Positions 13,544-33,009 of a DNA stretch of 39,983 bases are shown here, piece after piece (positions within the stretch are counted from its first letter, which is position 1; each line of letters starts with the position of its first letter). Made by a program: the position numbers and the translations under genes. The notes under the pieces are model-generated. The model worked only from the letters and a program-made list of their open reading frames with translations. It ran no database searches and was not told the DNA's origin. Origin of the DNA: Nitrospira sp. UW-LDO-01. Its GTDB lineage: Bacteria > Nitrospirota > Nitrospiria > Nitrospirales > Nitrospiraceae. Where the stretch lies: positions 1-39,983 of the forward strand of contig NIUT01000080.1 of the NCBI GenBank assembly GCA_002254365.1, read 5' to 3'.

Positions 13544-14941
13544 ATGTTCAGACCCATTCCAGAAACCACGCTCTTCCGACGGATTCCCTATCGGTTGATC
13601 GCGTCCGTGCTCCTACTCCTCGCCTTGGTCGTATCCGTCATGTTGCTCGTCAGCCTCGAACGAGAAAAACTCTTGCTCCGAGGATTTACCGAAGGGGCGA
13701 AGGCTCCGACAGAACTCTTCCAGGCCCTCTGGCAATCGCGCAACGATCTGATCATCGAGACTCTTCTCGGCTTCCTCGTCAGTGCGATCGGGATCGCGGC
13801 GGTCATGACGTTTCTTCACTATGACGCCACGCGAAGGACCCTGGAAGAAGTCAAGGAACTCGCGCGGAACATTCTCCAGGGCATCCCCACGGGTGTGCTC
13901 ACGGTGAATCAGGAAGGACTCGTCAGCGCGATGAATCCCGCAGCTGAGGTGGTATTGAATCGCGTCTCACCGAGCTTGCTGGGGAACAGCTATGACGCGA
14001 TATTCCTCGAAGCAGACCCGATCCGACAGGCTCTCGACGAGGCGTTGAGAGCGCACCGGCATGTCAGTCAGAAGGACGTCCTCTATGAGCGCAAGGACCT
14101 CCCCCCGAGGACCATTCGCGTGAGTACAGCGGAACTGACCGGGGATGATAAGAAGGCTGCGGGCGTGATTCTGCAGGTGCAGGACGTCACCGAATGGCTC
14201 GGCCTTGAACAGCGAGTCCGGGTCGCAGAAAAGTTAGCGGCGTTGCACACGCTGTCCGCAGGGGTGGCGCATGAGCTGCGCAATCCCTTAAGTGCCATCG
14301 ATCTAAATTTGCATCTCCTGGAGGAAGAACTCAAGGAGAAGGGAACGCCAGGACCACGGGGTTGGCAATACCTCCACGTCTTGAATGCGGAATGCCGCCG
14401 TCTGTCTGGAATTCTGGACAACTTTATGAGGTTCGCGCGCCCAGGCGCGGTAGGCCTGCACGATATCAACGTCCACGCACTGATCGAACACATCATGGCC
14501 TTGATGCAGTTTGAGGCAGAGGAACGTCATGTTCTGCTTGACCATACCGTGGGAAAGGATTTGCCGGCGGTGCTGGGTGACGAGACCCAAATCAGCCAAG
14601 TCTTGGTGAACATCATTGTGAATGCGTTTCATGCCATGCCGAACGGTGGGCGCTGTCATATCGCGGCGATACGACGGGAGGCGGACGGGAAATCGTGGGT
14701 GGAAATCGCGGTGGAGGACAGCGGCGTCGGAATTCCTCAGAAGGAGCTTCCCCGATTATTTGAACCTTTTTACACAACCAAGTCGAGCGGGACCGGACTC
14801 GGTCTTGCCATCGCGTACCGAATTATGCAGGATCATGGCGGCACGATTCAGGTATCGAGCGTACCCGGAAGTGGAACGATGGTGGTGACACGATTTCCCC
14901 TGACAAGTGATCACCCAGACCACGTGGGAGTGGGATCATGA
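13544..14941 (+). CDS. NtrB-like membrane sensor histidine kinase with PAS domain
   Basis: A sensor kinase of 465 residues. Two membrane helices (about 18-37 and 71-91) enclose a short periplasmic loop. A PAS domain follows (about 103-215: ILQGIPTGVLTVNQEG, NPAAEVVLNR), then the HisKA helix with the phosphorylated His243 in AGVAHELRNPLSAI. The ATPase part has an N box (VNIIVNAFHAMPNGG), DSGVGIP, a LFEPFYTTK F box and GTGLGLAIAYR. It overlaps the downstream regulator gene by four bases (ATGA), so the two are a cognate pair. The signal is unknown; with such a small external loop the PAS domain is the likely sensor. Confidence 0.93.
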   Translation: MFRPIPETTLFRRIPYRLIASVLLLLALVVSVMLLVSLEREKLLLRGFTEGAKAPTELFQALWQSRNDLIIETLLGFLVSAIGIAAVMTFLHYDATRRTLEEVKELARNILQGIPTGVLTVNQEGLVSAMNPAAEVVLNRVSPSLLGNSYDAIFLEADPIRQALDEALRAHRHVSQKDVLYERKDLPPRTIRVSTAELTGDDKKAAGVILQVQDVTEWLGLEQRVRVAEKLAALHTLSAGVAHELRNPLSAIDLNLHLLEEELKEKGTPGPRGWQYLHVLNAECRRLSGILDNFMRFARPGAVGLHDINVHALIEHIMALMQFEAEERHVLLDHTVGKDLPAVLGDETQISQVLVNIIVNAFHAMPNGGRCHIAAIRREADGKSWVEIAVEDSGVGIPQKELPRLFEPFYTTKSSGTGLGLAIAYRIMQDHGGTIQVSSVPGSGTMVVTRFPLTSDHPDHVGVGS

Positions 14942-16296
14942 CGCAAGCCGCGCATATTCTCATCGTGGACGATGAAGTGAATATTCGTAGTGCGCTGGTG
15001 ACGATGTTGGAGAAAAAAGGCTATCACGTTGCCGGAAGAGGGACAGGGGAAGAAGCGTTGCAGCTTCTCGAGGAAGTCCGGATGGATCTGGTGATCACCG
15101 ACCTGAGGATGCCCGGGATCGGCGGGATAGAATTCCTCCGTCGAGTCAAGGGTCAATGGCCCGACACGGTCGTCGTAATCATGACGGCGTACGGGTCGAT
15201 CGATACGGCGGTGGAAGCAATGCGGCTGGGAGCCTACGACTATCTGACCAAACCGGTCGACCGTGAGCGGCTTCCGGTCGTGGTAGCCAAAGCGCTCGAG
15301 CACCATGCCTTGGCCTTTGAGAACAAGCGCCTCCGCGACCGTCTCGACACACGGTCACGATTCGAGCAGATGAGCGGCGAGAGTCCGGCCATGCAACGAG
15401 TCTATAGCCTGGTGGAGATGGTGGCAGACCGCGATGTGACCGTCCTGCTCACAGGGGAAAGCGGAACCGGCAAGGAACTGGTCGCACGCGCGATCCACCA
15501 CAAGAGTCTGAGGGCCGATGGGCCGTTCATTACCGTCAATTGCGGGGCCTTACCGGAGAATCTTTTCGAGAGCGAGTTATTCGGGTATGAGAAGGGCGCG
15601 TTCACCGGCGCCATGACAACGAAGGTGGGGCGGTTCGAACTGGCAGACGGCGGCACCCTGCTGCTGGACGAAGTCGGCGAACTCTCCCTCAAGTCCCAAG
15701 TTGATTTCCTGCGTGTACTGGAAACGAAAGAATTCAGGCGCTTGGGGGGAACCAAGTTGATCAAAGTCGATGCGAGAATCATCGCCGCCACGAATCGCAA
15801 TTTGGCTGAAGCGGTGAAGCAGGGGGATTTTCGAGAAGATCTCTATTATCGGCTGAACGTCGTGCCTCTCCATCTTCCGCCGCTCCGTGAACGAGGGGAC
15901 GACATCCCGCTGCTCGTGACACGGTTTCTGGAAGAATGTTGCGCGCAACATCAACGAAAACCCAAGGAGATTTCTCGGGAGGCCATGCGACTACTTCGAT
16001 TGTATGCTTGGCCCGGTAACATTCGCCAGCTGAGAAACCTGATGGAGCGGTTGGTGGTCACCGTGCCGGACACAACGATTCAACCGATGCACCTTCCCGA
16101 AGAAATCCAGATCAGTAAGGAAGAGCACCGCACCATGATGGTGACGCTCGGAACGCCGATTGAGCAGATCGAGCGAGACGTGATCAGTCGAACCTTAAAG
16201 GAAGTCACCAACCATCGAGAACAGGCCGCAAAGCTGTTAGGGATCAGCTTGAGAACCCTCCAATATAAAATCAAAGAATACGGCATTCGCGACTGA
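14938..16296 (+). CDS. NtrC-family sigma-54-dependent response regulator
   Basis: A 452-residue enhancer-binding protein. The receiver domain (1-120) has the acidic pair Asp11-Asp12, phosphoacceptor Asp55 in VITDLRMPG and Lys105 in YLTKPVD. The AAA+ domain (about 142-375) has Walker A GESGTGKE (173-180), the sigma-54-contacting GAFTGA (220-225) and Walker B LLLDE (241-245). The C-terminus is a Fis-type helix-turn-helix (NHREQAAKLLGISLRTLQYK). It should activate sigma-54 promoters when phosphorylated by the overlapping kinase. I searched the window for TGGCAC-N5-TTGC sites and found none convincing, so its targets are unknown. The Hyf-like operon 2.2 kb downstream is one candidate. Confidence 0.95.
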   Translation: MTQAAHILIVDDEVNIRSALVTMLEKKGYHVAGRGTGEEALQLLEEVRMDLVITDLRMPGIGGIEFLRRVKGQWPDTVVVIMTAYGSIDTAVEAMRLGAYDYLTKPVDRERLPVVVAKALEHHALAFENKRLRDRLDTRSRFEQMSGESPAMQRVYSLVEMVADRDVTVLLTGESGTGKELVARAIHHKSLRADGPFITVNCGALPENLFESELFGYEKGAFTGAMTTKVGRFELADGGTLLLDEVGELSLKSQVDFLRVLETKEFRRLGGTKLIKVDARIIAATNRNLAEAVKQGDFREDLYYRLNVVPLHLPPLRERGDDIPLLVTRFLEECCAQHQRKPKEISREAMRLLRLYAWPGNIRQLRNLMERLVVTVPDTTIQPMHLPEEIQISKEEHRTMMVTLGTPIEQIERDVISRTLKEVTNHREQAAKLLGISLRTLQYKIKEYGIRD

Positions 16297-17962: not shown

Positions 17963-18354
17963 GTGCCAGGACATGCCGATAGGGTAGTGGTGCAGTATGC
18001 CAGAGGATCCTTGGCACTGGTCCGGCTGGATCTCTCAACAGGAGCCGTCGCAACCAGTCGTGCGGGATTGCAGGAAACCTTGCACCGTGGGCTGTAAGAC
18101 TGGGCCATGTCGTACACCCGCGAGACAAACACGCGTTTCTCTCAGCTGGGGAGGATCATTATTTCCTCAACGGACATCGTGTGTATTGGCTCAGCGTCAC
18201 AAGATTGAACGGCATGCAGAGCACCTATCGCGTGGCGCACACTCGTATGGACACTCGGAGAGCAGGAGGCTGGTCGTGGGAGACAATGAAACGAGGGCAT
18301 GGCAAGCTTGGAAGATTACGTGCGGGACGGTGTTGGTCATTGCGCTGTTGTTAA
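17963..18354 (+). pseudogene. Probable frameshifted small gene upstream of the Hyf-like operon
   Basis: A GTG at 17963 preceded by AAGGAG with 9-base spacing opens a frame of 44 codons with natural-looking sequence (ADRVVVQYARGSLALVRLDL, then STGAVATSRAGLQETLHRG) that stops at 18095. Another frame, open from well upstream, continues the pattern from about 18090: LGHVVHPRDKHAFLSAGED, HYFLNGHRVYWLSVTRLNG and TYRVAHTRMD. It stops at 18354. The two parts read as one protein of about 110-130 residues broken near 18085-18100. Its 3' part overlaps the tiny membrane gene at 18276. Family unknown. Either a decayed gene or a sequence error. Confidence 0.42.
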
Positions 18355-18383
18355 CTGTCGTGCATCTCGTGATGGGACTTTGA
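18276..18383 (+). CDS. 35-residue single-span membrane peptide
   Basis: A very short gene: GTG at 18276 preceded by a perfect AGGAGG (18264-18269) with 6-base spacing. The product begins MGDNETRAWQAWKI, followed by a strongly hydrophobic helix (CGTVLVIALLLTVVHLVMGL) that ends the protein. Polar cytoplasmic start and one membrane span are typical of small accessory subunits of respiratory or ion-pumping complexes. It lies 151 bases upstream of hyfB. It overlaps the 3' frame of the broken gene described above, so one of the two calls may be wrong; the ribosome-binding site favours this one. Confidence 0.5.
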   Translation: MGDNETRAWQAWKITCGTVLVIALLLTVVHLVMGL

Positions 18384-18534: not shown

Positions 18535-20562
18535 ATGTTGAATCTGTTATGGATTCTTCTCGGTGGGTATGGAGCCGGGATACTACTTCCCATCTGCCTG
18601 CGGGAACGGCCAGAGTCTCAACGTCTCGCGACCAGTGTCGCCGCCATCCTAGCCACCAGTGCAGGCATCGTTTTGGGGCTCCTTGGCCTCATGTCTTCGG
18701 AACCCGTCACAGCCTCTTTCTCCTCCACCATCCCTCTGCTCACCGTGGCCATTCGACTCGACCCACTCTCTGCATTCTTCGTCTTGACGATCTCCCTGGT
18801 CGGTCTCGCCACGTCGATCTATGCCATCGGATATCTGCGGCATTTAGAGCGGCTTGCATCGACCGCCACGCTCGGAGCGCTCTTTAACGCCTATCTCCTC
18901 TGTATGACGTTCGTCGTCCTGGCGGACAACGGGTTCTTCTTTTTGCTCATCTGGGAACTGATGTCGCTGTTGTCCTATTTTCTCGTGGTCACTGAGCACG
19001 AGAAGGCGGAGGTGCGGTACGCGGGATTGTTCTATGTGATCATGACGCATATCGGAACTGCGTTCATTGTCGTGGCGTTCCTGATCTTCTTTCAGAGTGC
19101 CGGATCATTCTCCTTTGAAGCCTTCCGGCATCCGGAGCGCCCCTTACCCGAGGGCATGCGAACGCTCGTGTTTCTCTTGATGTTGATCGGGTTCGGCACG
19201 AAGGCCGGCATCGTGCCGCTCCATGTGTGGTTGCCCTATGCGCATCCGGTGGCACCGTCTCATGTCTCAGCCGTGATGTCCGGTGTCATGATTAAGACCG
19301 CGATCTATGGTCTGATCCGAGTGTATTTTGATTTCTTCGGTGGGCAGTTCCCGTGGTGGTGGGGGTTTGTTGTCCTGTTCCTCGGGGCGACATCTGCGTT
19401 ACTCGGCGTGATGTACGCGTTGATGGAACATGACCTCAAGAGGCTCCTCGCATTTCATAGTGTGGAAAACATCGGCATCATCCTGTTGGGTATCGGAGCC
19501 GGTATGATCTTTCAGTCCTACGGATTGAAATCACTGGCCGCGCTCGGAGTCCTGGCAGGGCTCTACCATACGATTAACCACGCCCTGTTCAAGGCTTTGC
19601 TGTTCTTAGGAGCCGGCTCACTGCTCTATGCCACCCATACGCGTAATATGGAAGAGTACGGCGGGTTACTTCGGCGAATGCCTTGGACGGGTGGCTTCTT
19701 CTTGATCGGGGCCGTGTCGATCTCGGCCCTGCCTCCCACGAATGGATTCGTGAGCGAATGGCTGGTATTCCAAAGTCTCTTTCTGAGCTTTCAAATTCCG
19801 ACGGTGTTTCTCAAGCTGATGCTGCCGATTGCGGCAACGATCTTGGCCCTCACCGGCGTCCTGGCCCTGGCCTGCTTTGCAAAGGCGTTCGGCATTGCGT
19901 TTCTTGCACAGCCACGAAGCACGCACGCCCGTCATGCTGAGGAAGTTCCAATTCCGATGCGCATTGGGATGGGCATCCTGGCCACCCTTTGCGTAGCGTT
20001 GGGCATTGCCCCGATGGTAGTGGTGCCGCTGTTGGATCGCGTTGTCGCACCTCTGACAGGGATATCGATCACAAGCAAGGTCTTGGCGATCGATGGATGG
20101 GCGCTGGCCCCGGTGAATGTCGAATTCTCAAGCCTGTCCACGCCGGCGCTTGCGTTGATGCTTGTCGTGCTGGCGATGTTGGGGCTAGGACTCGCCGTCG
20201 CACTCGGAGGTCGTCTGCAAAAACGGCATTCTAAGACGTGGGGCTGTGGGATCAACCTTACACCTCGGATGGAATATACCGCGACCGGTTTCGTCCAGCC
20301 GATCAAACGAGTATTCAGTACGATCTATCAGCCGACGGTGAAACTCGAAACGGAGTTTCTTGCCGAGTCACGATACTTCGCCAAACGGCGACACTTTGAA
20401 TTCCACATTGAACCGATCTTCGAGAAATATCTTTACGAACCATTAGTGGCATTCTTTGCGACGCTGGCCGACCGCCTGAAAGTCATCCAGGCCGGCGGTC
20501 TCCATCTCTACCTGACCTATATATTCGTCACCTTGATCGCCTTGCTGTTGCTCGCGGTGTAG
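18535..20562 (+). CDS. hyfB: HyfB-like antiporter/proton-channel subunit of an Ehr-type complex
   Basis: This polytopic membrane protein of 675 residues is homologous to HyfB/HycC and to NuoL/M/N of complex I. It should carry a proton (or sodium) path. The conserved glutamate of the fifth helix is Glu141 (LLIWELMSLLSYF) and the channel lysine is Lys223 in GFGTKAGIVPLHVWLPYAHP. A second lysine lies in MIKTAIYGLIR and a broken-helix His region in YHTINHALFKALLFLGAGS. The C-terminal extension (PTVKLETEFLAESRYF to the final helix) is typical of HyfB. It is the first gene of six packed genes; hyfC starts 3 bases after its stop. Confidence 0.93.
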   Translation: MLNLLWILLGGYGAGILLPICLRERPESQRLATSVAAILATSAGIVLGLLGLMSSEPVTASFSSTIPLLTVAIRLDPLSAFFVLTISLVGLATSIYAIGYLRHLERLASTATLGALFNAYLLCMTFVVLADNGFFFLLIWELMSLLSYFLVVTEHEKAEVRYAGLFYVIMTHIGTAFIVVAFLIFFQSAGSFSFEAFRHPERPLPEGMRTLVFLLMLIGFGTKAGIVPLHVWLPYAHPVAPSHVSAVMSGVMIKTAIYGLIRVYFDFFGGQFPWWWGFVVLFLGATSALLGVMYALMEHDLKRLLAFHSVENIGIILLGIGAGMIFQSYGLKSLAALGVLAGLYHTINHALFKALLFLGAGSLLYATHTRNMEEYGGLLRRMPWTGGFFLIGAVSISALPPTNGFVSEWLVFQSLFLSFQIPTVFLKLMLPIAATILALTGVLALACFAKAFGIAFLAQPRSTHARHAEEVPIPMRIGMGILATLCVALGIAPMVVVPLLDRVVAPLTGISITSKVLAIDGWALAPVNVEFSSLSTPALALMLVVLAMLGLGLAVALGGRLQKRHSKTWGCGINLTPRMEYTATGFVQPIKRVFSTIYQPTVKLETEFLAESRYFAKRRHFEFHIEPIFEKYLYEPLVAFFATLADRLKVIQAGGLHLYLTYIFVTLIALLLLAV

Positions 20563-20565
20563 CCG

Positions 20566-21516
20566 ATGCTTCAATTGATCATCCTCCTCGTGGCTCAAAC
20601 AACAGTCTTATTGGCCGTCTCCCCGTTTCTCGTGGGTCTCATTCGGAAGGTCAAAGCACGATTGCAATTGCGGCGGGGCGCCAGCCTCTTCCAGCCGTAC
20701 GCCGATTTGGCGAAGCTCTTCCACAAGCAGCCGGTGATCTCAACCACCACCTCATGGATCTTCACGGCGACGCCGTATATCGTATTTGCCTCTATTTTGA
20801 CTGCGGGTCTGCTGGTCCCAACATTCACCTCGCAGATGCCCATGAACTTTGCAGGAAACATCATTGCACTAGTGTATCTCTTGGCGGTGGGCACGTTTTT
20901 CTTGATTCTCGCGGGACTCGATGCGGGGTCGGTCTTTGGCGGGATGGGAAGCAGCCGGGAAGCGATCGTGGCATCGCTGACCGAGCCGGCCATGATGCTC
21001 GCGATCTTTGCCATTGCGCTGACGAATGGGTCCACAAATGTGAGTACCATCGTCCATAAAACCGCGCTGTTGGAGGGTATCGTCACGGACCCGTCACCGC
21101 ATCTCATGGCGTTGGCCGCCCTCTTCATCGTGGCGCTCGCCGAGACAGGACGGGTGCCGGTCGACAATCCCGCGACACACCTGGAACTCACCATGATTCA
21201 TGAGGCAATGCTCCTTGAATACTCAGGACGCTATCTCGCCCTACTCGAATGGGCAGCCGGCCTGAAACTGGCGGTGTTCCTTTCCTTGATCGCCAACGTC
21301 TTCGCGCCATGGGGCATCGCGACGACCGTCACCCCCGCCGCGATGGGAATCGGGCTCCTGGTGTACGTAATGAAAACCGCAACACTCGCGGTGGTCATCG
21401 GAATCATCGAATGTATGTTCGCCAAATTGCGGTTATTCAGGGTGACGGATCTGCTGGGCGTGGCGTTCATCCTCGCGCTACTCGGGTTGCTGTTTTTTTA
21501 CATTCTTCGGAGCTGA
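20566..21516 (+). CDS. hyfC: HyfC-like (NuoH/HycD family) membrane subunit
   Basis: The protein has 316 residues, equal to the usual HyfC length, and about eight membrane helices. NuoH-family hallmarks are visible: GSSREAIVASLTEPAMM (cytoplasmic loop) and ETGRVPVDNPATHLELTMIH followed by EAMLLEYSGR, the charged loops that contact the soluble arm. This subunit couples redox change at the large and small subunits to the membrane proton channels. Its retained acidic and basic loop residues suggest that coupling still works even though the NiFe site is gone. It starts 3 bases after hyfB and ends 4 bases before hyfE. Confidence 0.93.
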   Translation: MLQLIILLVAQTTVLLAVSPFLVGLIRKVKARLQLRRGASLFQPYADLAKLFHKQPVISTTTSWIFTATPYIVFASILTAGLLVPTFTSQMPMNFAGNIIALVYLLAVGTFFLILAGLDAGSVFGGMGSSREAIVASLTEPAMMLAIFAIALTNGSTNVSTIVHKTALLEGIVTDPSPHLMALAALFIVALAETGRVPVDNPATHLELTMIHEAMLLEYSGRYLALLEWAAGLKLAVFLSLIANVFAPWGIATTVTPAAMGIGLLVYVMKTATLAVVIGIIECMFAKLRLFRVTDLLGVAFILALLGLLFFYILRS

Positions 21517-21520
21517 ACGG

Positions 21521-22186
21521 ATGCAGGGGCTTTCGTCTATTGGGTTACAACTGGTCGACCTATGCTCGGCCTTACTCTTGCTGACCTGTTTCGCGATTGT
21601 GGCGCAACGGCGGCTCTCGGCCTGTGTCGATTTGTTCGCCCTGCAGTCGGCCTTTCTCGTCGTCACCGCAGCGCTGGTCGCCTATCTAACCGGGAACCAA
21701 CACATCTATATTGCGGCGGGGCTGACCGGCATCATTAAAGTGATCGTCATTCCTCGGGTCCTCAAGAAAGTCATTGATCGCCTCAACGTCAAACGGGAAC
21801 TGGTGATGCACGTGAACGTGCCGACCGGTCTATTGATTTGCGGTGGACTGGTCATGTTGGCATTTTTCATCGCGCAGCCGATCATTCCGCTGGGATCTCT
21901 CCTCACGAGAGATTCTTTAGCCATCGCTCTCGCGATCGTACTCATCGGATTGTTTACGATGATCGCGAGACAAAAGGCGGTCTCCCAACTGATCGGCTTC
22001 CTCGTCCTGGAAAACGGACTGTTTTTGGGTGCCACCGCCGCCACTCATGGCATGCCGTTGGTCGTCGAATTGGGCGTGTTCTTCGATGTGCTCATTGCGA
22101 CGTTGATCGCGGGAATCTATACGAATCGCTTACAAGATGCATTCGACAGTGTGGATACGGACCGACTCACCGTCCTGAAAGAATAG
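21521..22186 (+). CDS. hyfE: HyfE-like (NuoK-related) membrane subunit
   Basis: A 221-residue hydrophobic protein with about seven helices, close to the usual HyfE length (about 216). The NuoK-like part near the C-terminus contains LIGFLVLENGLFLGATAATH, with the conserved helix glutamate in VLENG, and ends in FDVLIATLIAGIYTNRLQDAF. In hydrogenase-4-type complexes HyfE joins HyfC to the antiporter-like subunits. The ATG at 21521 follows a GGAGCTGAACGG stretch. It lies 14 bases before the HyfF start. Confidence 0.9.
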   Translation: MQGLSSIGLQLVDLCSALLLLTCFAIVAQRRLSACVDLFALQSAFLVVTAALVAYLTGNQHIYIAAGLTGIIKVIVIPRVLKKVIDRLNVKRELVMHVNVPTGLLICGGLVMLAFFIAQPIIPLGSLLTRDSLAIALAIVLIGLFTMIARQKAVSQLIGFLVLENGLFLGATAATHGMPLVVELGVFFDVLIATLIAGIYTNRLQDAFDSVDTDRLTVLKE

Positions 22187-22200
22187 ACGAGGCTTCCTTG

Positions 22201-23736
22201 ATGATCGCAGTCGTGGTCTTGTTGATCGCTCCGCTTTTCGCGGGAGGACTAAGCCTGGTCGTCCATCGCTCTGCATGGCTTCATGGGATCAATCTCGCAA
22301 GTATGGGCGCGCTCGTCACGGCAGAAGTGGTGATCACCCAAACCGTGCTGAAGAACGGTCCCGTGACGGCATTGGGCCAGTTAGTCTATCTCGACGCATT
22401 GTCGACCTTCATTCTATTCATTATCGGAGTGGTCGGACTGGCCTGTTCGTTCTATATGCGTTCGTACATGGACGAACAAGTCGTGCGGGGCGTGATCGCG
22501 CCAGGACGCCTCAACCTGTTCTTTTTTCTCTTCCACATGTTTCTCCTTGCCATGGTGGTTGCGACCATTGCGAACAGCGTCGGGGTCCAATGGGTGGCCA
22601 TCGAGGCGACGACGCTCGCGACCACCTTTCTGATTGCGTTTTGGAGACGACGAGAGTCGCTGGAAGCCGGATGGAAATACCTCATTTTATGTTCGGTCGG
22701 CATTTCGCTCGCCTTGTTCGGCGTCGTGCTACTGTATTACTCATCACTCCATGTGCTGAGCGATGCGAGTCAAGGGTTGAACGTGACGGAGCTACTTCCT
22801 GTGGCTGATCGGCTCAATCCCCAGGTGCTCAAGTTGGCCTTCATCTTCATCCTGGTTGGATATGGCACCAAGGTGGGACTCGTCCCGATGCATAGTTGGC
22901 TGCCGGATGCCTACACAGAGGCCCCGGCGCCGGTCGTCGCCATGCTCGCCGGTGTTCTCGAAGTGGTTGCAGCCTATGCCATCCTACGGCTAAGAGTCAT
23001 CGTGGACCACGCCGTTCCGTTTGCCTTTGCTGGTGGATTGTTGGCATTGCTTGGCTTTGCTTCATTTGTGACAGCGGCGTTCTTCATCCTCATCCAGCAT
23101 AACTATAAGCGGCTGTTTGCCTATTCCAGCATCGAGCATATGGGTATCGCCATGATTGGGTTTGGGGTCGGAGGAGCGCTGGGAACCTTCGGAGGCCTGT
23201 TTCATCTCTTGAATCACGCCTTGGCGAAATCGATGGCTTTTTTTGCCGCGGGTAACATTCACCGTCGCTTTCACACCGTGGAAATCGCCGAGGTGCAGGG
23301 GTTGGCCATGGCACAACCTTGGACGGCCATGGCACTAATGATCTCGGGATTGGCCTTATCGGCGCTTCCACCGTTTGCGGCATTTGGCAGCGAAGTCCAG
23401 ATTCTCACGGCCTTGGCTTCGCAGGGGGTTCCGGGAACGGAGTTTGCCGGCACCACGGGCATGGTGACGGTGACCTTATCGGATCAATTCGTTCGGATCG
23501 CACTCGCTTCAGTCTTTCTGGTCTCTGCGGTTCTTTCGTTCGGCGGACTACTGTATCGTATCACCGGAATGGTGTGGGGGACACCGCCTGGAGGCCTTGT
23601 CCTAGGAGAAATCTGGACGCTCGGCCATCTACCGATCATTCTGCTTACCGGAGCGCTTATTGGATTCAGCGTGTTTCTGCCCCAGCCCATACAACAACTC
23701 TTGGAACAAGCGACCAGAATTCTGGTGATTCAATAG
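22201..23736 (+). CDS. hyfF: HyfF-like antiporter/proton-channel subunit
   Basis: A second antiporter-like subunit of 511 residues, related to HyfF and NuoL/N. The helix-5 glutamate is Glu135 (WVAIEATTLATTF) and the channel lysine Lys224 in GYGTKVGLVPMHSWLPDAYT, followed by EAPAPVVAMLAGVLE. A further His/Lys region is HLLNHALAKSMAFFAAG. The frame is open back to 21838, but this part overlaps hyfE and is basic and unlike the family; the ATG at 22201 begins a proper first helix. Together with HyfB it gives two proton channels; the third antiporter-like subunit HyfD of E. coli is absent from the cluster. Confidence 0.93.
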   Translation: MIAVVVLLIAPLFAGGLSLVVHRSAWLHGINLASMGALVTAEVVITQTVLKNGPVTALGQLVYLDALSTFILFIIGVVGLACSFYMRSYMDEQVVRGVIAPGRLNLFFFLFHMFLLAMVVATIANSVGVQWVAIEATTLATTFLIAFWRRRESLEAGWKYLILCSVGISLALFGVVLLYYSSLHVLSDASQGLNVTELLPVADRLNPQVLKLAFIFILVGYGTKVGLVPMHSWLPDAYTEAPAPVVAMLAGVLEVVAAYAILRLRVIVDHAVPFAFAGGLLALLGFASFVTAAFFILIQHNYKRLFAYSSIEHMGIAMIGFGVGGALGTFGGLFHLLNHALAKSMAFFAAGNIHRRFHTVEIAEVQGLAMAQPWTAMALMISGLALSALPPFAAFGSEVQILTALASQGVPGTEFAGTTGMVTVTLSDQFVRIALASVFLVSAVLSFGGLLYRITGMVWGTPPGGLVLGEIWTLGHLPIILLTGALIGFSVFLPQPIQQLLEQATRILVIQ

Positions 23737-23748
23737 GAGAGGTTGAGC

Positions 23749-25341
23749 ATGACCAAGACCGAGTTCTCTGACGATCTGCTCACAACTGCGTTCCCAGGTA
23801 TTCTGAAGAATCATCCGATCTGTACACAGTCTTCACATTTCGTGGTCCCCAAGGACCTTGTGCCGGCGATCACCCACTACATTCATACCCAACCAAGCTT
23901 GCGTGGCCGTTTGACGCTCCTATGGGCCTGTGATTATCGTCCCGTTCGTGAGACCTATGGGCTCTACTACTTGTTCACGCTAGAGCGCTCTCACCACTGG
24001 GTGGTATTGTCCACCGAAACGGCAGGCACCGATCGACTGTTTCCGTCTATTACTCCCCACCTTCATGCCGCGCAGTGGTACGAGCGCGAGATCCGCGACA
24101 TGTTCGGGTTGATTCCCCAAGGGCATCCTGATCTGCGGCGTCTGGTGCGTCATGAACATTGGCGAAAAGGGACACACCCGCTCAGAAAAGACTTCTCCTG
24201 GGACGCCACGCTGGGTCGACAGCAGGGTGAACATCACTTCCGCCATATTGAAGGAGAAGGGGTATTTGAAGTGCCGGTGGGACCTATCCATGCCGGGATC
24301 ATTGAGTCGGGACATTTTCGGTTTTCCGTGGCCGGTGAACCGATCATGCAACTCGAGCTACGTCATTTTTGGAAACACCGTGGTGTGGAGAAACTTTTTG
24401 AGCAACAGCTGCTGATTGAGGCGGTGCCGCTGGCAGAACGCGTGTCCGGAGATACGACAGTCGGGCACGCACTCACCTATTGCCAGGCCGTAGAAGCACT
24501 CCTACACCTTGAAGTACCTCGGCGCGCCAAGTACCTCCGCGCTCTCTTTTTAGAACTCGAACGACTGTACAATCATCTCGGCGATATTGGGGCCATGTGC
24601 AATGACACGGCCTATGCGCTCGCTCACGCCCATTGTGGCCGTATGAAGGAACAGATTATGCAACTCAACGACCGGTTCACAGGGTCACGGTTCCTTCGAG
24701 GTGTCATCCAAGTGGGAGGAGTGACCCGGGACATAGAGAACACCCAACTCACCAAGATTGTCGAGGAGCTGAACCAAATCCAACAGGACTTCTCCGAAGT
24801 GGAAGCCATCATTCTTGGGAACGCCTCCCTCACCGATCGGTTGGAGACGACAGGGATTCTCAACGAGCAGACAGCATGGGATCATGCGGTGATCGGCATC
24901 GTAGGTCGGGCATCGGGCATGAATTATGATCTCAGGCGTGATCGGCCGTTCGCCGCATATGACGAACTACCCGTCAATGTGGCCCTCTATCGCTACGGTG
25001 ACGCGAGGGCCAGGTTACGCGTTCGCGGCGATGAGATCCATGAATCCATTCGGCTCATTCGCGAAATGCGCGATAAGATTCCGGGCGGTCCCATTGCCGA
25101 TCAACCCAGTTCTTCGCCGAATCCCGGCGACTGGACGCTGGCAGCGGTTGAAGGGTGGCGCGGCGAGATTCTGTATATGGTGATGGCAGGGGAAGACGGC
25201 CGGATTCATCGGTGCAAGGTCCGCGACCCATCCTTTGTGAACTGGCCTGCGATTCAATGGGCGGTACTGGGCAATATTATCCCGGACTTTCCACTCATCA
25301 ACAAGAGCTTCAACCTCTCATATGCCGGGAATGATCTGTAG
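23749..25341 (+). CDS. hyfG: HyfG-like fused NuoC/NuoD-type large subunit lacking NiFe ligands
   Basis: A 530-residue fusion. Residues about 1-150 are the 30-kDa NuoC-like domain (WYEREIRDMFGLIPQGHPDL at 110-129, HPLRKDF). Residues about 165-530 are the 49-kDa/hydrogenase large-subunit fold (GPIHAGIIESGHFRF, ELRHFWKHRGVEKLFE, LERLYNHLGDIGA). In true NiFe hydrogenases the first ligand motif reads RVCGxC; here it is RVSGDTTVGH (231-240), with Ser233 and Thr236 in place of both cysteines. The C-terminal DPCxxC is replaced by FNLSYAGNDL at the very end, so there is also no maturation-cleaved tail. It therefore cannot bind NiFe and falls with Ehr/complex-I-like proteins. The ATG at 23749 follows AGGAGAGG; quinone, ferredoxin or another partner is unknown. 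Confidence 0.92.
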   Translation: MTKTEFSDDLLTTAFPGILKNHPICTQSSHFVVPKDLVPAITHYIHTQPSLRGRLTLLWACDYRPVRETYGLYYLFTLERSHHWVVLSTETAGTDRLFPSITPHLHAAQWYEREIRDMFGLIPQGHPDLRRLVRHEHWRKGTHPLRKDFSWDATLGRQQGEHHFRHIEGEGVFEVPVGPIHAGIIESGHFRFSVAGEPIMQLELRHFWKHRGVEKLFEQQLLIEAVPLAERVSGDTTVGHALTYCQAVEALLHLEVPRRAKYLRALFLELERLYNHLGDIGAMCNDTAYALAHAHCGRMKEQIMQLNDRFTGSRFLRGVIQVGGVTRDIENTQLTKIVEELNQIQQDFSEVEAIILGNASLTDRLETTGILNEQTAWDHAVIGIVGRASGMNYDLRRDRPFAAYDELPVNVALYRYGDARARLRVRGDEIHESIRLIREMRDKIPGGPIADQPSSSPNPGDWTLAAVEGWRGEILYMVMAGEDGRIHRCKVRDPSFVNWPAIQWAVLGNIIPDFPLINKSFNLSYAGNDL

Positions 25342-25352
25342 GGAGACCGAAC

Positions 25353-25859
25353 ATGTTCCGTATCATCAAAAAGAGTCTGAAGATCGGAGTCGTGACGGGT
25401 CGTTATCAAAAAGCTGATAGGGCTGCTGTACCAGTGCCCACTGAAGCGAAGGACAAGACAAGACCCTTTAAACGATCCCTCGCAATCCGTGAAGTGGATA
25501 CCGGGTCCTGCAACGCCTGTGAAATGGAAATGAACGCGCTCTTGAACCCCGTGTACGATGCTGAACGGTTCGGTATTCACATCGCCGCGTCGCCACGTCA
25601 TGCAGATGCATTGGTCGTCACGGGACCCGTCACTGTCAACATGGAGCGGGCGTTGAAAGATGTGCACAGGCAAACGCCTGATCCGAAGATCGTCATTGCG
25701 CTCGGCGACTGTGCGATCAACTGCGGCCTATTCAAAGGCAGCTATGCGGTTACGGGTCCGGTCGATCGCCATATTCCCGTCGATGTCAGAATTGCTGGTT
25801 GCCCGCCGCGTCCAGCAGAAATTCTCGAGGCATTGTCGGAATTGCGAGGAAATGGCTAG
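25353..25859 (+). CDS. hyfI: HyfI-like (NuoB-type) iron-sulphur small subunit
   Basis: A 168-residue subunit holding an N2/proximal-type 4Fe-4S cluster. The four ligands are in place: Cys53 and Cys56 (TGSCNACEMEMNA, hydrogenase-type CxxC rather than the CC of NuoB), Cys120 in IALGDC and Cys150 in IAGCPPRP. Cys124 is an additional nearby cysteine. It is shorter than E. coli HyfI (about 250). Retention of this cluster beside a large subunit with no NiFe site implies that electrons still reach the large/small interface, as in complex I. It ends the operon; the converging kinase gene follows after 110 bases. Confidence 0.92.
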   Translation: MFRIIKKSLKIGVVTGRYQKADRAAVPVPTEAKDKTRPFKRSLAIREVDTGSCNACEMEMNALLNPVYDAERFGIHIAASPRHADALVVTGPVTVNMERALKDVHRQTPDPKIVIALGDCAINCGLFKGSYAVTGPVDRHIPVDVRIAGCPPRPAEILEALSELRGNG

Positions 25860-31459: not shown

Positions 31460-31798
31460 ATGGCCATGACGCTCTTTCATGTCGACTGGTGTCCGGACTG
31501 TCTTGTGGTTCGCCGCAAGCTGACCGACTTGGGAGTGACCTATGACGCCGTCGTTGTGCCGGACAGCAGACGCATGCGCACGCAGGTGTATGAGGTGTCC
31601 GGTCAATACTATGTGCCCGTCCTGAAGGACGGAGATCTCGTCCTGACGGAAACCGCCGATATTCTGACCTATCTCGACGAGCGAGCCAAAGCGGACAACA
31701 CAGGAATTCCGGCATCGACACAGTTTCAATCGCAAGCCCGGACAACACCCGACGAACCAAGCCCAGACGACGAGCATCCGTCTTGCCGGATCACCTGA
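31460..31798 (+). CDS. Glutaredoxin/GST-N-like protein
   Basis: A thioredoxin-fold protein of 112 residues. Strand 1 (TLFHVDW) leads into a CPDC redox motif (Cys11, Cys14), followed by VVRRKLTDLGVTYDAVVVPD, the cis-proline segment YVPVLKDGD and a LTETADILTYLDER helix, as in glutaredoxins and GST N-terminal domains. The polar tail after residue 85 is not part of the fold. It should reduce disulphides or bind glutathione-like thiols. It ends 17 bases before the kamA start, so the two genes are probably co-transcribed, and may protect or service a thiol-dependent partner. That link is only contextual. Confidence 0.82.
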   Translation: MAMTLFHVDWCPDCLVVRRKLTDLGVTYDAVVVPDSRRMRTQVYEVSGQYYVPVLKDGDLVLTETADILTYLDERAKADNTGIPASTQFQSQARTTPDEPSPDDEHPSCRIT

Positions 31799-31815
31799 TC
31801 ACCCAAGGACCTTTT

Positions 31816-33009
31816 ATGGAAGACTGGCAGAAAGTCCTGGCAAAGAGCATCGTGAAGCCCAAAGACCTGGCCAAGCGGTTCGGCCTGGATGAACAAGAGA
31901 TCGAAGCCATTGTCGGTCCCTACCCCATGCGCATTACGCCGACTGTCCTCGAGACAATCAAGTCCAAGGATGACGCGATCTGGAAACAGGTGGTTCCAGA
32001 TATCACGGAATTAGACGACATCGCGGCTGACGACGATCCGCTGGAAGAGGACCTCATGAGCCCGGTGCCCCACCTGGTGCATCGCTACCCGGACCGCGTG
32101 TTGCTTATGGTTACCAACCAATGTCCGATCTACTGTCGGTTCTGCACCAGAAAACGATTGGTCGGGAAACCCGGTTTTCTAAAAAAGGGTGAGCTGGACC
32201 GCGCGATTCAGTACCTGCGTGAACATAGCGAGGTCCGTGATGTCATCCTGTCAGGAGGGGACCCCCTCTTGCTGCCCGATCATCTCCTTGATCGAATCCT
32301 GAAAGCGCTTCGGACAATTCCGCACTTGGAGCTCATACGGATCGGCTCACGAGTCCCCGGCAGTTTACCTCAGCGCATCACGCCTCGCCTCTGTGAAATC
32401 GTCAAACAGTACCACCCGATCTACATGAATCTGCATTTCAACCATCCCGATGAGCTGACACCGGACGTGAAGGCTGCCTGTGGTCGTCTCGCTGATGCCG
32501 GCGTTCCACTCGGCGCCCAAACCGTCCTCCTCAAAGGCGTGAATGACGATCCGGAGATCATGAAGCAACTGGTCCATCAACTTCTTCTTGCGCGAGTGAA
32601 GCCCTATTATCTCTATCAGGCTGACTTGACCAAGGGAACGAACCATTTCCGCACGACGGTCGAAACGGGACTCAGGATCATCAAGGCGCTGCAAGGGCAT
32701 ACCAGCGGCATGGCCGTCCCTCACTTTGTGATTGATGCGCCGGGAGGAGGAGGCAAGATTCCTTTGTTGCCCGACAACTACCTGGTCCATCTGGATGAGG
32801 ACGGGGCCGTTCTCCGCAACTACGAGAACAAGACCTTCCACTACCCCCAACCAAAGACAGACGGTCGACGGGAACTCCCCATGGTTGGTGTAGGTTCCGC
32901 TGTCGACCAGGCCGAAGAAGCCTATGCGACTTGCGGGGACAGCTATCCCGATCGCGACGGCTACGCCATGTGGGGAAACAGCTGCGGCGGGGATGCGGAC
33001 GAGCTGTGA
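31816..33009 (+). CDS. kamA: Lysine 2,3-aminomutase (radical SAM, PLP)
   Basis: This 397-residue radical SAM enzyme interconverts L-lysine and L-beta-lysine. The 4Fe-4S ligands are in NQCPIYCRFCTRKR (Cys103, 107, 110). The SAM-contacting ILSGGDPLLL is present, the PLP lysine is Lys314 in APGGGGKIPLLP, and both lysine-side-chain-binding acids of the family are retained: Asp270 (YLYQADLTKG) and Asp307 (VIDAPGG). Their presence favours true lysine aminomutase over the EF-P-modifying EpmB. The ATG at 31816 has AAGGA at good spacing; an upstream in-frame start at 31783 would overlap the previous gene. The last 40 residues add an acidic, Cys/Gly-containing tail. No beta-lysine acetyltransferase gene lies nearby. 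The stop overlaps the next start (GTGA). Confidence 0.92.
   Translation: MEDWQKVLAKSIVKPKDLAKRFGLDEQEIEAIVGPYPMRITPTVLETIKSKDDAIWKQVVPDITELDDIAADDDPLEEDLMSPVPHLVHRYPDRVLLMVTNQCPIYCRFCTRKRLVGKPGFLKKGELDRAIQYLREHSEVRDVILSGGDPLLLPDHLLDRILKALRTIPHLELIRIGSRVPGSLPQRITPRLCEIVKQYHPIYMNLHFNHPDELTPDVKAACGRLADAGVPLGAQTVLLKGVNDDPEIMKQLVHQLLLARVKPYYLYQADLTKGTNHFRTTVETGLRIIKALQGHTSGMAVPHFVIDAPGGGGKIPLLPDNYLVHLDEDGAVLRNYENKTFHYPQPKTDGRRELPMVGVGSAVDQAEEAYATCGDSYPDRDGYAMWGNSCGGDADEL

Follow-up and report, generated by a model that had tools for sequence, protein, structure and literature searches.

The closest described relatives of the locus considered here are the Ehr complexes of Nitrospira. Published reports already describe hyfBCEFGI in this genus (PMC5596200) and the loss of both CxxC motifs (PMC7305129), and they name the complex Ehr and give its function as unknown (PMC10284858, PMC12342949). 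Three more distant systems serve for comparison. In Escherichia coli, the hydrogenase large subunit HycE is cleaved after Arg537 (PMC7654741), and its canopy residue Asp529 has been termed strictly conserved (PMC9474812). In the membrane-bound sulfane sulfur reductase MBS (Mbx) of Pyrococcus furiosus, a shortened loop forms the three-cysteine cluster at which sulfane sulfur is reduced (PMC7684303). The third system is complex I, with NuoB, NuoCD, NuoH, NuoL, NuoM and NuoN as the subunits concerned. In that enzyme, quinone is bound by His38 and Tyr87 of Nqo4.

We analysed a stretch of 39,983 nucleotides from Nitrospira sp. UW-LDO-01 (contig NIUT01000080.1; hereafter the window), whose genome is 3.9 Mb in 230 contigs. 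Positions 18535-25859 hold six tightly packed genes, hyfB-C-E-F-G-I, all on the + strand, and the Pfam and NCBIfam identification is strong for every one of them except hyfE. These matches bear out the gene set given in a preliminary description of the window, made without database searches, and the Ehr-type label used there is the one found in PMC10284858 and PMC12342949. Compared with the Ehr of Nitrospirales described in PMC5596200, PMC7305129, PMC10284858 and PMC12342949, the locus has the same genes, the same loss of both CxxC motifs and the same genus. It is one more copy, with no difference in kind, and the finding of an Ehr complex in Nitrospira is in kind already known.

The number of related loci (46, of which 45 come from Nitrospira or other Nitrospirota) excludes a chance origin. 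HyfG in these loci is 68-88% identical to the window copy within Nitrospirales, and 46% identical in locus L049. The observation itself, namely the gene set, the lost NiFe ligands and the retained cluster and channel residues, is confirmed. The sequence shows a hydrogenase module and a membrane arm as in machines of the formate-hydrogenlyase/complex I type, with neither a NiFe site nor an electron-entry subunit of its own. The proton-channel residues reported in the preliminary description, Glu141 and Lys223 of HyfB and Glu135 and Lys224 of HyfF, are found at these positions; they do not vary among the aligned orthologues, 35 for HyfB and 42 for HyfF. From these conserved residues we infer that Ehr may pump protons.

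The former NiFe pocket of HyfG

HyfG is numbered here from the TTG at 23743, and the preliminary description counted from the ATG at 23749; the first ligand motif, RVSGDTTVGH, occupies residues 233-242 in the former numbering and 231-240 in the latter. The C-terminus reads ...FNLSYAGNDL. When HyfG is aligned with E. coli HycE, Cys241, Cys244, Cys531 and Cys534 correspond to Ser235, Thr238, Ser526 and Gly529, and the loss of both NiFe-ligand motifs noted earlier is upheld. The two NiFe-binding CxxC motifs of the group 4 [NiFe] hydrogenases are therefore lacking. Conservation was counted over 89 Ehr large subunits of the phylum Nitrospirota, one of which is gapped at the C-terminal positions (n = 88 there). 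The four ligand positions are occupied by Ser (89/89), Thr or Ser (88/89), Ser (88/88) and Gly (88/88), and never by cysteine. Hidden ligands, the possibility of cysteines elsewhere realigning to these positions, are ruled out by the alignment of the 89 sequences: HyfG has six other cysteines, at 27, 63, 247, 286, 298 and 491, and none falls at a ligand position. A group-4-like large subunit without NiFe-ligating cysteines, as expected of Ehr, is found in all 89.

The remainder of the pocket is also highly conserved. Glu188 (HycE Glu193) is kept in 89/89 sequences, the canopy Arg473 (HycE Arg478) in 88/89 and Asp237 in 82 of 89. The canopy Asp common to hydrogenases and complex I is replaced by Asn in Ehr (Asn524 in HyfG, and Asn in 86/88 sequences). 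Loss of the cofactor followed by drift would not give such conservation, and the rebuilt pocket is for this reason probably still used. The AlphaFold model of HyfG has HycE (7z0s_E) as its best match in the PDB (TM-score 0.77), which is also its nearest PDB relative by sequence; the pLDDT is below 50 in the pocket segments 124-213 and 497-532, making the model unusable for pocket geometry.

The last residue of HyfG aligns with Arg537 of HycE, and none of the 89 Ehr sequences runs beyond it; hyfG therefore encodes a protein of already-processed length. NuoD terminates at the same position. Ehr thus departs from the group 4 hydrogenases, which need Hyp maturation and, in the case of Hyc/Hyf, C-terminal processing. 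We used a sample of 88 Nitrospirales genomes for co-occurrence, 29 with Ehr and 59 without; HypD is missing from 19 of the 29 and shows no association with Ehr (Fisher P 1). In the window's genome HypD is at C221:21919-22968, and the HypA/HypF genes and a HybD-like protease on the same contig adjoin the gene for a HydA-like large subunit whose CGIC motif is intact. The maturation genes belong to this separate group-3b-type hydrogenase, which is distinct from the hyf set, and so the tie between the hyf genes and a maturation protease or hyp operon that the preliminary description had named as evidence to the contrary did not materialise.

An alignment and tree of the large subunit, proposed in the same description, place Ehr with HycE/HyfG and away from NuoD. 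The tree has 33 rows, among which that of one hydrogenase (L134) is long, and its root was set on NuoD by choice. All 28 Ehr rows fall together in a single clade (100/100) on the HycE/HyfG side. Besides the Nitrospirales type (SGDT) and its kin elsewhere in the Nitrospirota, this clade includes a second type (SG[TVC][SD]S, SYSG[CS]D). Two complete Ehr operons in tandem, one for each large-subunit type, occur at L117:131-14922, on a contig shared with L049. In some operons a further antiporter-like gene separates hyfE from hyfF and brings the number of such subunits to three (L021:5874-7358, L027:4975-6456 and L037:408-2243; partial in L025).

The comparison with known systems can now be made more closely. 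The B, C, E, F, G and I subunits are homologous to those of E. coli Hyf, Hyc/Hyf (7z0s) is the nearest solved structure, the spacing of the proximal cluster is identical, and Glu193 and the canopy Arg478 of HycE are kept in the window's HyfG. Unlike Hyc/Hyf, Ehr has no NiFe ligands, assembly peptide, HycB/HycF or HyfA/HyfD/HyfH/HyfJ, and has Asn in place of Asp529. MBS (6u8y; PMC7684303) resembles Ehr in having lost the NiFe site but not the ion-pumping arm or the proximal [4Fe-4S] cluster; the Ehr of Nitrospira does not share its two retained NiFe cysteines (of four), its three-cysteine cluster with a loop three residues shorter, its ferredoxin-like subunit MbsN or its Na+ module. With complex I, Ehr shares the loss of all four NiFe cysteines, the same large-subunit end and the antiporter-like pumps. 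It differs in branching with hydrogenases rather than NuoD, in having a cluster motif of the CxxC rather than the CC type, in lacking NuoEFG, NuoI, NuoA and NuoJ, and in lacking the quinone-binding His/Tyr pair. This pair is kept in the two NuoD proteins of the window's genome, whereas Ehr has Ile187 and Gly236 at these positions in 89/89 sequences. The loop of HyfI is gapless against MbhJ and HycG and thus not shortened as in MBS. With both the His/Tyr pair and the shortened loop absent, the known acceptors of the superfamily would therefore be unlikely, in their known form, to serve Ehr.

The HyfI cluster and electron entry

The small subunit HyfI has ligands of the hydrogenase type (Cys53-x2-Cys56, Cys120 and Cys150), the four N2-type cluster cysteines that had been described as intact. 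HyfI is predicted to hold one [4Fe-4S] cluster, with the hydrogenase-type spacing seen in membrane-bound hydrogenase and formate hydrogenlyase. Intact proximal ligands and antiporter-like membrane subunits carrying channel residues, further features expected of Ehr, are thus both present.

Genes for electron entry were sought in loci L006-L050 and L117-L136, with HyfA, HyfH, HycB, HycF, NuoE, NuoF, NuoG and NuoI as queries. Among the 64 Ehr loci no homologue was found apart from a weak match in L125, where one ferredoxin-like stretch of 27% identity lies some 3 kb away from hyfB. The ferredoxin-like HycF/HyfH and the HycB/HyfA of group 4 hydrogenases are thus missing at Ehr operons, as is the NuoEFG module of complex I, and the Nuo operons of the window's genome sit elsewhere. 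The control L134, the only true group-4 hydrogenase among the loci compared, has CxxC, HycF, HyfD, the assembly peptide and a HycI-like protease. Given that no entry subunit is seen across these Ehr loci, its absence is a feature of the family in this phylum and not a gap in the assembly of the window. Two statements of the preliminary description hold: no genes like HyfA, HyfD, HyfH or HyfJ lie near the hyf operon of the window, and the donor is unclear, none of the Ehr operons examined having a dedicated subunit next to it.

In Nitrospira, four loci have a pair of genes of note: a partial gene resembling the alpha/gamma part of 2-oxoacid:acceptor oxidoreductase and a PF02552 gene, both immediately 5' of hyfB (Table 1), the latter being an intact frame in three of the four. 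PF02552 is annotated as a subunit of carbon monoxide dehydrogenase (CODH); in the window's genome, genes of this family occur within two operons for 2-oxoacid:ferredoxin oxidoreductase. None of the ten Nitrospira genomes tested, among them that of the window and those of the PF02552 loci, has the Prismane/CODH catalytic family PF03063. A CODH partner (Camejo et al.) is consequently not supported, the PF02552 genes of L017, L021, L022 and L047/L075 being of the oxidoreductase-operon kind. Judging from these other Nitrospira genomes, the 'CODH' that adjoins the hyf operon of 'Candidatus Nitrospira nitrosa' in PMC5596200 may be the same as the upstream PF02552 genes. The oxidoreductase-derived genes give a weak hint of ferredoxin. 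An NDH-2-like flavoprotein found 3' of hyfI in some loci was dismissed as a partner, since it is not conserved and is absent from the window.

We tentatively propose that Ehr couples a redox reaction to ion pumping: electrons would enter at the HyfI cluster from a soluble low-potential carrier, and an acceptor would be reduced in the rebuilt pocket. The carrier, probably ferredoxin, would dock on HyfI/HyfG in the place of HycF/NuoI and pass electrons directly onto the HyfI cluster. The acceptor, which may be a non-proton small molecule or a quinone held otherwise than by the His/Tyr pair of complex I, would be reduced in the hydroxyl-lined former NiFe pocket, where the hydrogenase-type Glu188 and the canopy Arg473 would be retained for proton handling. 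HyfC would then relay the reaction to the antiporter-like subunits HyfB and HyfF, and the reaction may also run in reverse. More doubtfully, the pocket (Ser-Gly-Asp-Thr ... Asn-x-Ser-Tyr-x-Gly-x-Asp) may be a catalytic site of a new kind, acting on a substrate novel to the superfamily; the complex would then be a minimal ion pump, with its single Fe-S cluster loaded directly and, in part of the genus, with a 35-residue membrane subunit.

Several points weigh against the proposed carrier-fed pump. To our knowledge, all others in the superfamily place one or more ferredoxin-like subunits between the donor and the proximal cluster. The upstream oxidoreductase-like genes are only partial and are absent from the window. 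The geometry of the pocket is not readable from the HyfG model, whose confidence is low precisely there. Donor, acceptor, direction and pumping are all inferred, the pumping from conserved residues only. Finally, the link to formate hydrogenlyase made by Camejo et al. and the enrichment of formate dehydrogenase (below) mean that the carrier need not be ferredoxin.

Rival readings

Ehr might instead be a stripped complex I, working as an oxidoreductase between ferredoxin (or another carrier) and quinone, which is either reduced at the HyfG-HyfI-HyfC interface or, as quinol, sends electrons back to ferredoxin for the reductive tricarboxylic acid cycle. The loss of all four NiFe cysteines is that of complex I and the membrane arm is intact; moreover, the 2-oxoacid:ferredoxin oxidoreductases of Nitrospira require reduced ferredoxin, the source of which is not known (PMC8407350, PMC6606698). 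The uniform replacement of the His/Tyr pair in Ehr, and its presence in both NuoD of the same genome, nevertheless make this reading unlikely. Ehr cannot be a general ferredoxin-reducing device either, because 59 of the 88 Nitrospirales genomes lack it; the device proposed for Nitrospira is the 2M complex I (PMC6606698).

Alternatively, an entry module could be borrowed, with NuoI, alone or with NuoEFG, from a complex I copy docking on HyfG/HyfI to form an NADH- or ferredoxin-linked hybrid. NuoI copies are present in 88/88 genomes, and the window's genome has complex I modules elsewhere, including a separate NuoF adjoining a 2Fe-2S ferredoxin. The genome-wide search for partners suggested by the preliminary description did turn up an orphan NuoI (G000:C104:23942-24313, L079), outside any nuo operon, which is 78% identical to the complex I copy and has close orthologues in eight other genomes of the 88. 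It does not track Ehr, only 3 of its 9 carriers being Ehr-positive (Fisher P 1), and is rejected as the missing electron-entry subunit. True group-4 hydrogenases, furthermore, retain their own HycF, and a borrowed module seems improbable.

A connection with formate has been proposed for other bacteria (PMC6349859) and for nitrite-oxidising Nitrospira (PMC5596200). Ehr would here be the energy-coupling part of a formate-oxidising system, receiving electrons from formate dehydrogenase (FDH) directly or via NADH or ferredoxin. The canonical FDH alpha subunit does accompany Ehr, which occurs in 14 of the 16 genomes with it and in 15 of the 72 without (Fisher P 1e-6). Within genera, however, the association is weak and not significant (permutation P 0.06), no canonical FDH was found in the window's genome or in 14 other Ehr-positive genomes, and where the two share a contig with positions given (G010 and G035) they are tens of kilobases apart. 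We do not expect this to be the role of Ehr.

It would appear still less probable that the redox function is dead, leaving a plain ion transporter or antiporter in which HyfG and HyfI are structural only. The lack of donor and acceptor subunits and the complete antiporter-like subunits would fit, but drift would not have preserved the entire pocket and the four cluster cysteines throughout the phylum. That Ehr remains a hydrogenase whose metal site is unusual is scarcely credible, even though HyfG keeps Glu188, His191, His242 and the canopy Arg, given the four ligand positions without cysteine, the missing assembly peptide, the carriers without HypD, and, as reported in PMC12342949, the lack of induction by H2 in N. 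moscoviensis.

Neighbouring genes and significance

The features of the locus are collected in Table 1.

Table 1. Features of the Ehr locus. Positions are those of the window unless a locus is named.
Feature	Position	Strand	Basis or remarks
35-residue open reading frame, GTG start, single transmembrane segment; tentative candidate for a small membrane subunit	18276-18383	+	conservation at Ehr loci
hyfB, antiporter-like subunit	18535-20562	+	NCBIfam hydrogenase 4 subunit B, 742 bits; Glu141, Lys223
hyfC, NuoH-like membrane anchor	20566-21516	+	PF00146, E 4e-46
hyfE, membrane subunit	21521-22186	+	NCBIfam hydrogenase 4 membrane subunit E, 9e-29; 101 bits, below the curated cut-off of 136
hyfF, antiporter-like subunit	22201-23736	+	PF00361, E 3e-56, hydrogenase 4 subunit F; Glu135, Lys224
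hyfG, NuoCD-like large subunit without NiFe ligands or C-terminal assembly peptide	23743-25341	+	best PDB relative HycE 7z0s_E
HyfG first ligand motif RVSGDTTVGH, replacing RVCGICGFAH	24439-24468	+	alignment to HycE
HyfG C-terminal motif NKSFNLSYAGNDL, replacing IGSLDPCYSCTDR; stops at the processed position	25300-25338	+	alignment
hyfI, small subunit, proximal [4Fe-4S] ligands Cys53, 56, 120, 150	25353-25859	+	PF01058; gapless against MbhJ and HycG
Oxidoreductase-like and PF02552 genes upstream of hyfB	L017:708-2778, L021:77-694, L022:188-1801, L075:7106-9375		

The small open reading frame shows conservation across 12 Ehr loci of Nitrospira and lies 146-191 nt 5' of hyfB. It is preceded in nearly all of them by an AGGAGG ribosome-binding site, which in the window stands before the GTG. 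Its variation is greatest at third codon positions, and one copy (L013) is frameshifted. In the 60 family genomes searched it occurs in three, each time at the Ehr locus and only there.

An NtrB/NtrC-like pair (13544-16296) lies upstream of the hyf operon and is syntenic in many Nitrospira Ehr loci, and sigma-54 regulators stand immediately before hyfB in L130 and L133. Despite these NtrC-type regulators, no sigma-54 promoter above expectation was found 5' of hyfB. Lysine 2,3-aminomutase genes occur near Ehr in two distant groups, in the window (31783-33009, outside the hyf operon) and in L130, L133 and L135; in family f25 the aminomutase gene is followed by genes for ATP-grasp proteins like D-Ala-D-Ala ligase. 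The aminomutases of the window and of f25 are only 46% alike.

Our comparisons of the pocket residues, C-terminal processing, HypD, electron entry and quinone residues go beyond the available portions of the published Ehr papers. Further additions are the small open reading frame, the dismissal of the orphan NuoI and a new interpretation of the 'CODH' upstream of hyfB. Nitrospira are dominant nitrite oxidisers, converting nitrite to nitrate, and Ehr is present in a third of the Nitrospirales genomes sampled (29/88). The question of its function is now narrowed to a complex that is not a NiFe hydrogenase, and that has neither the quinone residues of complex I nor the cluster of MBS. Because the pocket is conserved across the phylum, Ehr should have a definite substrate, and the comparison provides residues to mutate, a true-hydrogenase operon of the same phylum as a control, and a candidate extra subunit.

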